Assembly: GCA_902554355.1 (NCBI GenBank)
Contig: CACDOC010000009.1
Coordinates: forward strand, 1-36,412
Length of the DNA: 36,412 nt
Origin: an uncultured SAR86 cluster bacterium
GTDB taxonomy: Bacteria; Pseudomonadota; Gammaproteobacteria; Magnimaribacterales; Magnimaribacteraceae
Direction of reading: 5' to 3'
The notes below the pieces were generated by a model. It was not told the DNA's origin and ran no database searches. It saw only the letters and a list, made by a program, of their open reading frames with translations. Position 1 is the stretch's first letter; each line of letters starts with the position of its first letter. Of this stretch, positions 7,839-10,163 are shown piece by piece. The translations under genes were made by a program, and so were the position numbers.

Positions 7839-8558
7839 TTAAAAAAAATCCTTGCCTAGATACACATCTTTAACTAATGGGTCCTTGCTGACTTCCTCTG
7901 GCTTTCCTTCTGCAATTAGTTTTCCTTGATTGATTACTAAGACTTGGTCACATATTTGCATAGTATCTCGTACATTATGATCACTAATAAGAACGCCTAT
8001 ATTTTTGGATTTAAGTTGTTTAATTGTTTTCTTTAGATCTGAGACGGCTATAGGGTCTATACCTGCAAAGGGCTCGTCTAGAAGAATAAATCTAGGGTTA
8101 GAGCCCAGAGATCTTGCAATTTCAGTTCTTCTTCTTTCTCCTCCTGAAAGTTTTATACCTAATGTGTCAGAAAACTCGGTCAGGTTAAATTCATCAAGTA
8201 ATTTCTGTAATTCATTAGTAATGGAAGCCTTGCTTAAGTCTTTTCTCTGCTCCAGCGATGTTAGTATATTTTCTTTTACTGTTAACTTTCTAAATATTGA
8301 AGCTTCTTGAGGTAAGTAAGACAATCCTAAGCTAGATCTTTCTGATATATTTTTATCACTTATATCTTTTAAGTCTAATTTAATTATTCCTGAATCTTTC
8401 TTTAACAAGCCGGCAATTATGTAAAACAATGTTGTTTTACCGGCTCCGTTAGGACCTAACAAGCCTAAAGTATTGCCTGAGATCATTTCAAAAGAAATAT
8501 TATCAACAGCTATTTTAGAACTATAACTCTTGAAGATATTTTCAACAGATAATTTCAT
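7839..8558 (-). CDS. lptB: LptB, LPS export ABC transporter ATPase
   Basis: 239 residues with a full ABC ATPase set: Walker A GPNGAGKT at 35-42, Q-loop PQEASIF around Q84, signature LSGGE at 137-141, Walker B FILLDE with D161-E162, and H-loop His194 in ISDHN. The YLPQEASIFRKL segment is typical of LptB. LptB dimerises under LptF and LptG in the inner membrane and powers LPS extraction towards LptC-LptA-LptD. lptF and lptG are not in this window, which is normal. The start overlaps the end of the upstream lptA-like gene by four bases, and rpoN begins four bases after its stop, so the operon is translationally packed. Confidence 0.95.
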   Translation of the reverse strand: MKLSVENIFKSYSSKIAVDNISFEMISGNTLGLLGPNGAGKTTLFYIIAGLLKKDSGIIKLDLKDISDKNISERSSLGLSYLPQEASIFRKLTVKENILTSLEQRKDLSKASITNELQKLLDEFNLTEFSDTLGIKLSGGERRRTEIARSLGSNPRFILLDEPFAGIDPIAVSDLKKTIKQLKSKNIGVLISDHNVRDTMQICDQVLVINQGKLIAEGKPEEVSKDPLVKDVYLGKDFF

Positions 8559-9193
8559 GAATTGTTAATTATTCGGGCATTAACTGATTTCAGTATTCTA
8601 TCTTTGTGCAGGTCATAATGAAGTTCATCTGAAATAATTTTCATACTATCTTCATAAAACACTGCATTTCCATCCATCACGATTAAATCTTTTGAGAGAA
8701 AGAGTTTTATTCTATTTGCATTACCCTTAACAATTCTTGAATCAGAAGCTATTTGATTTAAATTCGCATTCCAAAAGAGAATCTTTGTACCTTCTTGACC
8801 TTTTCGATTAATTTCCATGGTTGATGCAACAATCTCAAAACCCTCCGTTTCAAATATAACTTTTTCTTTGGATAAAATTGATTTGCCTAATAGATCGCCA
8901 CTTAGACTATCCGTGCTTATATTAAAAACTTCTCCATTCAAGTTAAATCTTCCTTCAACAGCACCCCTGAAAATAATTTCATTGTTGTCTAAATTTAATT
9001 CTCCCACTTTTGATCTTAGAACTATTTGTTCATTCTTCGAAAAATAACTTTGGAAAGAAGAGTTATTGAATTGAATTAAATTGTCAGGCTTAAAAGTGCC
9101 ATTAGCGTACAAAGTCGCACTAGAGAAATATATCGCCATAGAACATACCATAAATCTAGTTACTTTAATTAAGGGGTGTGTAAATTTAATCAA
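8555..9193 (-). CDS. lptA: LptA-like LPS transport protein with LptC-like first half
   Basis: 212 residues; E. coli LptA has 185 and LptC 191. A hydrophobic N-terminus (about 10-27) ending in LYA-NG may be a cleaved signal or an anchor. Residues about 55-140 follow the LptC pattern: a charged strand, a GAVEGRF strand, STDSLSGDLLGKSILS and then ETEGFEIVASTMEINRKGQ, which resembles the LptC C-terminal half. Residues about 150-205 look like an LptA repeat (MDGNAVFYEDSMKIISDEL, then YDLHKDRI). Both are OstA/LptC-fold strands that carry LPS across the periplasm. It lies one base after kdsD and overlaps lptB. In related operons kdsC and lptC lie between kdsD and lptA; here neither does. That it combines LptC and LptA roles is my inference; it may simply be a long LptA. 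Confidence 0.78.
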   Translation of the reverse strand: MIKFTHPLIKVTRFMVCSMAIYFSSATLYANGTFKPDNLIQFNNSSFQSYFSKNEQIVLRSKVGELNLDNNEIIFRGAVEGRFNLNGEVFNISTDSLSGDLLGKSILSKEKVIFETEGFEIVASTMEINRKGQEGTKILFWNANLNQIASDSRIVKGNANRIKLFLSKDLIVMDGNAVFYEDSMKIISDELHYDLHKDRILKSVNARIINNS

Positions 9194-9194
9194 T

Positions 9195-10163
9195 TTAAAC
9201 TAGCCCGGTTTCTACTAAATCATGCATCCTAATTAACCCTTCAGGTTGGCCCTTATTATTAGTTACGACTAAGGAATAAATCTGATTTCTTTGCATCATC
9301 TCAATAGCTTCTGTTGCTAGAGAAGAATTCGTTATGGTTTTTGCTTTATTTGACATTAATTGGGATATAGGAAGCTCCAGTACATCTGTTTTTTTATTCA
9401 AAGCTCTTCTGAGATCTCCATCAGTAAATATTCCTTTTAGTTTTAATTTTTCTATTACTAACGCTACACCCAGACCTTTAGAGCTAATCTCAATTAGTGT
9501 TTTGCCAAGGGTATCAGTTGGCAAAACTATTGGTAGCTCTTCCCCTTTTTTCATAACGTCCTCTACTTTAAGAGTCAATCTTTTTCCTAGCTTGCCTCCT
9601 GGGTGTGATTTAGCAAAATCATCTGCTTTAAATTTTTTAGCTTCTAATAGTGCAACTGCTATTGCATCGCCTAAAGCAAGAGAAGCGGTGGTACTCGTCG
9701 TAGGGGCCAAATCTAGAGGACAGGCTTCTTCTGAAATACCTGTATCTATATTTATCTTTGAATTTTGAGCAATAATTGAATCTTTAGATCCTGTTATTGA
9801 AAAAAAATCGCAGCCTAGATTTCTAAGATAAGGTAGCAAGTCTATAATTTCTTTACTTTGACCTGAGTGAGAAAAAATCAATACTTTATCTGATCTGTTA
9901 ATTCCACCTATGTCTCCATGTAATGCTTCCGCTGCATTTATAAAATTAGAAGGAGACCCAGTACTAGACAAGGTAGCAGAAACTTTGTTTGCTATATGGC
10001 CTGATTTCCCTATACCTAAGGTAATAATTTTGCCCTTAGTAAGTAAAAGTTTGTCACAAATATCATTAAATTCCTTTCCTAGAGACTTAACTAGATTGTC
10101 CAATCCTTTGGCCTCTATTTTAATTGTTCTTCTTCCAGTTTTTAGGTGGTTAATTTTTGTCAT
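9195..10163 (-). CDS. kdsD: KdsD, D-arabinose 5-phosphate isomerase
   Basis: 322 residues, the family length. An N-terminal SIS sugar-isomerase domain (about 25-175) has GIGKSGHIANK, SSTGSPSNF, AEALHGDIGG and FSHSGQSKE, with the later CPLDLAPTTST segment; two CBS domains follow (about 200-322). The enzyme makes D-arabinose 5-phosphate from ribulose 5-phosphate, the first step to Kdo for LPS core. It sits between the antiporter gene (17 bases upstream) and the lptA-like gene (one base downstream). The usual downstream partner kdsC, the Kdo-8-phosphate phosphatase, is absent here and must be elsewhere or replaced. All SIS motifs are present, so the gene looks functional. Confidence 0.96.
   Translation of the reverse strand: MTKINHLKTGRRTIKIEAKGLDNLVKSLGKEFNDICDKLLLTKGKIITLGIGKSGHIANKVSATLSSTGSPSNFINAAEALHGDIGGINRSDKVLIFSHSGQSKEIIDLLPYLRNLGCDFFSITGSKDSIIAQNSKINIDTGISEEACPLDLAPTTSTTASLALGDAIAVALLEAKKFKADDFAKSHPGGKLGKRLTLKVEDVMKKGEELPIVLPTDTLGKTLIEISSKGLGVALVIEKLKLKGIFTDGDLRRALNKKTDVLELPISQLMSNKAKTITNSSLATEAIEMMQRNQIYSLVVTNNKGQPEGLIRMHDLVETGLV

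Follow-up and report, generated by a model that had tools for sequence, protein, structure and literature searches.

A single LptC/LptA hybrid gene between kdsD and lptB in SAR86 bacteria, a probable one-protein lipopolysaccharide bridge

A single gene, hereafter X, was found as the sole gene between kdsD and lptB on a 36,412-nucleotide stretch of DNA (the window) from an uncultured SAR86 cluster bacterium (assembly GCA_902554355.1, contig CACDOC010000009.1, positions 1 to 36,412). One base separates the end of kdsD from the start of X, and the gene order yrbG-kdsD-X-lptB-rpoN is that of Escherichia coli with X in place of kdsC, lptC and lptA (Table 1). In most Gram-negative bacteria, linked LptC and LptA carry lipopolysaccharide (LPS) between the two membranes, and the bridge chain of E. 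coli is LptF-LptC-LptA-LptD. Computation showed that the front of X is LptC-like and its back LptA-like, that X is predicted to form one continuous jellyroll, and that the operon holds no other lpt bridge gene; a separate lptA directly downstream, as for lptC, was absent. The coordinates of the open reading frames (ORFs) confirmed an earlier note on this DNA, which had described a single 212-residue gene one base after kdsD and then lptB, without kdsC or lptC at the locus.

Profile scans detected both members of the pair in X. For LptC, X matched the equivalog model TIGR04409 (residues 34-133, 44.8 bits against a cut-off of 38, expectation value (E) 9.6e-12), passing the equivalog cut-off with a match that spans profile positions 67-168 of 180 only, and also passed PF06835 (residues 35-133, 30.6 bits against 21, E 3.2e-7). 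For OstA/LptA, it matched PF03968 at residues 92-198 (37.8 bits against 20.4, E 2.4e-9), covering profile positions 2-112 of 113. The LptC and LptA similarities are both beyond chance, and the profile search did not assign the whole of X to LptA. The residue boundaries had been placed by eye at about 55-140 (LptC-like) and 150-205 (LptA-like); the two similarities stood, but their limits shifted to those given above.

Because LptA and LptC have a common fold, X was cut into pieces for scanning. Residues 25-92 matched only TIGR04409 among the NCBIfam models, weakly (E 0.0032, profile positions 67-115), and residues 134-212 matched LptA models only, at the C-terminal half of LptA (PF03968, 30.1 bits, profile positions 57-112; TIGR03002, 21.8 bits). 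A 243-residue relative (G015; genomes are numbered with G and loci with L) matched PF06835 positions 5-110 with its first 120 residues, barely above the cut-off at 22.1 bits, and PF03968 positions 50-112 with its last 78. In a 246-residue relative (G007), LptC matches of the first 119 residues stayed below the cut-offs (TIGR04409, E 0.0062) and the last 78 residues matched LptA.

The structure of X was predicted with AlphaFold2 from the window protein and nine relatives, five of these labelled SAR86. The model was one continuous beta-jellyroll (predicted local distance difference test score 83.4, predicted template modelling score 0.80), with residues 1-23 poorly modelled. On this predicted model, VIA-align superposed LptC (4b54_A) on residues 24-147 (Z 13.4, root-mean-square deviation 2.3, 120 aligned residues) and, from a second entry (6mit_C), on residues 7-155 (Z 13.8). 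LptA (2r1a_C) superposed on residues 86-212 (Z 14.2, root-mean-square deviation 3.0, 125 aligned residues); structural matches to unrelated folds, with Z < 7, were disregarded. In length, X is above LptA and far below LptC and LptA combined. The predicted fold, the piecewise scans (weak at the front) and the order-wide synteny described below agree with the earlier proposal that the pair is replaced by one protein whose first half is LptC-like and whose second half is LptA-like.

Table 1. Features of the X locus, with positions in the window and the basis of each assignment.
Feature	Positions	Strand	Basis
X, single LptC/LptA hybrid gene, 212 residues, TTG start	8555-9193	-	profile matches, family alignment, predicted fold
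X residues 1-31, N-terminus of low hydrophobicity, interpreted as a signal peptide and not as an anchor of the LptC type	9101-9193	-	hydropathy alone
X residues 34-91, LptC-like jellyroll front (predicted LptF-facing end)	8921-9094	-	TIGR04409
X residues 92-133, covered by LptC and LptA profiles alike	8795-8920	-	Pfam and NCBIfam scans
X residues 134-200, LptA-like jellyroll back (predicted LptD-facing end)	8594-8794	-	piecewise scans
lptB, LPS exporter ATPase, sharing a 4-base overlap with the end of X	7839-8558	-	TIGR04406, 329.5 bits
kdsD, arabinose-5-phosphate isomerase	9195-10163	-	TIGR00393, 297 bits
rpoN, neighbour also in E. coli	6548-7834	-	Pfam scan, E. coli locus comparison
yrbG-like exchanger, neighbour also in E. 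coli	10181-11128	-	Pfam scan, E. coli and order locus comparison

Because the window's own genome (G000; 61 contigs) is 51% complete, the argument rests on relatives, sampled as 61 genomes from four families of the SAR86 order (f1 to f4, f1 being the window's family). Among named relatives the nearest is SAR86 cluster bacterium AG-343-J11 (L280), with a KdsD 84% identical. lptB was found at E ≤ 1e-60 in 51 of the 61 genomes, and at all 51 loci (50 fetched, plus the window) a single lpt gene preceded lptB and kdsC was absent from the locus; kdsD adjoins that gene at every locus but the one in G047. The single gene encodes 209-243 residues in f1 (outliers: 171 in G011 and 246 in G007, where lptB was out of view), 131-143 in f2, 183-239 in f3 and 125-134 in f4. 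In G014 (L090) it is split into frames of 111 and 121 residues near a run of A, by assembly error or slippage, and this gene was dropped from the f1 alignment.

Both similarities recur across the families. With the split gene excluded, NCBIfam models at E ≤ 0.01 detected LptA in 26 of 26 f1 proteins and LptC in 25 of 26; in f3, LptC was detected in 8 of 8 and LptA in 3 of 8; in f2 and f4 together, LptA was detected in 17 of 17 and LptC in 14 of 17 (E ≤ 0.1). By profile-profile comparison, f3 aligned to positions 1-197 of the 235 in f1 (E 2e-11), and f2/f4 aligned to f1 positions 78-223 (E 2e-12).

The N-terminal hydrophobic stretch of X had been taken for a membrane anchor, a claim unsupported in the window's genus. 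Measured as the best 19-residue Kyte-Doolittle mean, hydropathy was 1.26 in the window X and 1.30 on average in its genus (n = 4), against 2.12 for LptC (standard deviation 0.41, n = 20) and 1.70 for LptA (standard deviation 0.20, n = 23) of outgroups from outside the order; the window X is below both and closer to LptA. Candidate cleavage sites follow the N-terminus (SSA in the window and SFA in G004, found by script; ASA in G001, by eye), and we hold with moderate confidence that the window form of X is secreted. Elsewhere in the order, the values were 2.54 in f3, 2.01 in genus f1-g2, 1.90 in f1-g4, 1.86 in f1-g7, 1.68 in f1-g6, 1.66 in f2 and 1.35 in f4. The stronger, anchor-like N-termini of f3 and f1-g2 resemble that of outgroup LptC, and an N-terminal helix was modelled in the protein of L340 (see below), as would be expected if X kept an uncleaved anchor and acted as an LptC with a built-in LptA. 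Set against the low hydropathy of the window's genus and the possible cleavage sites, this alternative appears rather unlikely.

A separate lptC, for which the earlier note had suggested a search, was not found in the window's own genome (51% complete) or in 60 order relatives, within the limited sensitivity of the profiles. In the own genome, the only PF06835 or PF03968 match besides X was a 742-residue ORF on contig C29 that also matched LptD. Across the order, PF06835 at E ≤ 0.01 detected only X or ORFs of LptD size (737-765 residues) in f1 and only X in f3, and with PF03968 the f1 matches were X or LptD-sized ORFs, those in f2 and f4 were X, and the one in f3 was an ORF of 702 residues. 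A profile built from f3, run on 17 chosen genomes, recovered f3's own X, the X of G056, the LptD-sized 702-residue ORF and LexA in G016, along with ORFs of 358-475 residues matched at E 0.08-0.19. Six of the 61 order genomes are single contigs (G010, G036, G038, G040, G043 and G056). LptD matches were present in 50 of the 61 and LptF/G matches in 53.

The absence of kdsC noted earlier held for the own genome (TIGR01670, E ≤ 1e-5) but not for the entire order: 59 of 61 genomes gave no KdsC match, and two were positive (L268, L269). Because kdsD stays beside X in spite of this, another phosphatase may act in the synthesis of 3-deoxy-D-manno-octulosonic acid (Kdo). In f4, no LptD match (PF04453, E ≤ 1e-5) was found in any of the eight genomes, and the exporter of this family may have undergone further reduction or strong divergence. 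LptF/LptG matches were weak in the same eight genomes (G037, G040, G043, G046, G049, G052, G055, G058).

Outside the order, PF06835 matched in 49 of 54 genomes of the class (E ≤ 0.001). Of the five without a match, two (G065, G101) carry a gene of LptC size plus a second gene before lptB, and in the remaining three (G076, G095, G109) lptB itself was not found; G095 and G109 were not counted as lacking LptC for that reason. Thirty-six outgroup loci were viewed, 30 of them best lptC matches, and so biased toward having lptC, and six from an lptB search. Two genes occupied the lptC and lptA places at 35 of these, some named by size and position only; lptA was present at L240, L255, L258 and L264, and at L253, where lptB was out of view. 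The sole exception was G081 (L365), with lptC directly before lptB and no lptA between; this genome (99% complete) gave no LptF/LptG match at E ≤ 1e-20. A Methylohalobius metagenome-assembled genome (MAG) carries kdsC-lptA-lptB with lptC absent between (L324:3885-5659).

In a gammaproteobacterial MAG (L340:4480-5232), kdsC is kept and a single gene, LptC-like and about 250 residues long, precedes lptB. The product of this gene ends in a tail of about 54 residues, gave no match to LptA at E ≤ 0.01, and was modelled as an N-terminal helix followed by a jellyroll through residue 221. A KdsD plus LptB tree, built from 48 loci of the order, 24 selected named loci and E. coli, placed L340 on a long branch as the sister of the order (support 0.956; 0.986 for the order itself). 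Because this apparent sister keeps kdsC with one LptC-like gene, the single gene is suggested, though not proven, to be older than the loss of kdsC.

The LptF of the order was shown by computation to be altered along the edge that serves as the LptC docking site in E. coli. According to two studies, LptC becomes dispensable in E. coli with LptF R212G/S/C under LptA overproduction, and cross-links then form between LptA and LptF (PMC4986956, PMC9972910). The column of Arg212 sits two residues past the invariant Gly210. Of the 53 order genomes in which LptF/G was matched, 40 (including four of the eight in f4) had their LptF region retrieved and 39 sequences were aligned, the LptF of G004 being out of view; three of the 30 LptF/G loci of the class (G086, G089, G110) yielded no LptF that could be used. 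Of the 28 sequences from outside the order (E. coli and 27 outgroups), 24 have Arg in the 212 column; none of the 39 inside does, the residues there being Ser (11, all in f1), Leu (11), Ile (6), Phe (6), Val (3), Ala (1) and Met (1). In comparison, ten other columns with at least 70% Arg/Lys outside the order kept Arg/Lys in 38-87% inside. Moreover, the segment aligned to LptF residues 201-230 has 30 residues in all 28 outside sequences and 22-29 in all 39 inside.

Base composition as the cause of the Arg212 loss is weakened by an outgroup locus with 26% G+C that retains Arg there; it may still lie behind the change of the LptF region as a whole. In addition, the median length of LptF was 383 residues in f2 and 387 in f3 (L187-L202) against 339 in f1, with most of the extra length falling where E. 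coli residues 270-366 align.

Several results weigh against reading X as a merged LptC and LptA that works with a changed LptF. X failed the cut-off of the LptA equivalog TIGR03002 (38.1 against 71.7 bits, E 1.3e-9). In Pfam, LptC was not significant for residues 25-92 (E 0.13, ranked behind two chance matches), and the first 120 residues of the G015 relative had no NCBIfam match. The highest Z over the whole X model belonged to the LptD N-terminal domain (17.6, residues 14-202), and the fold alone is therefore no proof of an LptC plus LptA origin. The absence searches were imperfect: PF06835 had no match at E ≤ 0.01 in f2 and f4, where X itself went unseen, and missed the LptC-sized genes of G065 and G101, and the f3 profile, a weak control, missed X in all six f1 genomes searched. 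With regard to LptF, the own genome, 51% complete, gave no LptF/G match, and its genus-mates G003 and G005 have Val at 212. The change at 212 is probably one ancestral event, seen in 39 genomes rather than arising 39 times. Arg is likewise missing at 212 in four outgroups that have an LptC match (G067, Phe; G068, Leu; G082, Gln; G096, Glu), and the loss was just as complete at columns 218 and 311, so that three of 35 columns at least 85% conserved outside the order are kept in at most 2% inside.

The same gaps in sensitivity could let a highly diverged lptC elsewhere in SAR86 genomes escape, with X being merely an enlarged LptA, and the back is indeed the best conserved portion of X in the f1 alignment. 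The front of X nevertheless matches LptC and not LptA, though weakly, and X as a whole passes the LptC cut-off; PF06835 found nothing but X or LptD-sized ORFs in the order, in which single-contig genomes are included. We regard this reading as unlikely. It is more improbable again that X is an elongated LptC whose separate LptA has moved elsewhere, as the passing of TIGR04409 but not TIGR03002 and the single LptC-like protein of L340 might suggest, given that PF03968 passed its cut-off over almost its full profile and found only X or LptD-sized ORFs in f1, and that the last 79 residues of X match LptA only. An assembly or sequencing artefact of this fragmentary genome bin was rejected as vanishingly improbable, since 25 other f1 genomes carry an uninterrupted X relative (48% identity in G004, 43% in G001).

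The evidence points instead, with fair likelihood, to a natural six-component Lpt machine in which X is one bridge protein with an LptC front and an LptA back and the LptC-LptA joint is gone, as judged from sequence and predicted structure. In such a machine, X would be exported to the periplasm, its front strand would dock on the LptF jellyroll and its back strand on the LptD N-terminal domain, and LPS would slide through X with no LptC-LptA joint to cross. Both outer docking ends of the pair would be kept and the joint between them lost, which may leave a shortened LPS bridge. A likely origin is in-frame loss of DNA between two adjacent genes that share a fold, the loss of kdsC being a separate event. 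Later lineage-specific trimming may have removed the front and anchor in f2 and f4 and the back in part of f3, and may have weakened the anchor in the window's genus. The broader proposal, that the whole SAR86 order has a natural six-component exporter with the LptF end of LptC and the LptD end of LptA merged, LptF changed at the laboratory-suppressor residue and family-wise trimming to 125-143-residue precursors in two families, is tentative, with close to an even chance of holding in full.

Compared with E. coli LptC (TIGR04409, PF06835), X shares the jellyroll front (profile positions 67-168) and the operon place between kdsD and lptB, but in this genus appears to lack an anchor of LptC strength, has lptB directly next and has an LptA-like back half. 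With E. coli LptA and Pseudomonas aeruginosa LptH (PF03968, TIGR03002), it shares the jellyroll back, the place directly before lptB and a signal-peptide-like N-terminus, but it has about 55 extra LptC-like front residues and fails the LptA equivalog cut-off. As the two studies describe them, the E. coli delta-lptC lptF-R212G/S/C suppressors, with a six-protein bridge, have no separate LptC, as appears to be so in SAR86, and share with the order an LptF without Arg at 212 (Ser in 11 of 39 in the order), but they are laboratory mutants with unaltered, overproduced LptA, whereas the SAR86 case is natural, order-wide, based on a hybrid protein and known from sequence (PMC4986956, PMC9972910).

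A parallel single-gene form was observed in another phylum, the Omnitrophota, which contributed 11 of 50 named kdsD-lptB loci, each with one gene of 260-324 residues beside kdsC before lptB. The four proteins scanned (L299, L300, L313, L337) resemble X in having an LptC match first and an LptA match after it, the latter weak in two, and differ from it in their size (270-308 residues), in the tandem rather than merged arrangement of the matches and in the retention of kdsC. In the literature search, which left out most subscription papers, no paper naming lptC, lptA and SAR86 together was found, and natural LptC absence or fusion was not recognised among the matches listed.

X is a well-supported new form of Lpt bridge, with a function that is predicted from sequence and modelling. 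To our knowledge, LptC has been regarded as common to all LPS exporters, and SAR86 appears to have retained no separate LptC. The order would offer a natural point of comparison for identifying the parts of LptC that are required and would show which bridge interfaces evolution keeps. Further, the E. coli laboratory result on LptF R212 becomes a prediction that is testable with existing marine genomes, and X may be an example of genome streamlining that shortened a multi-protein machine.
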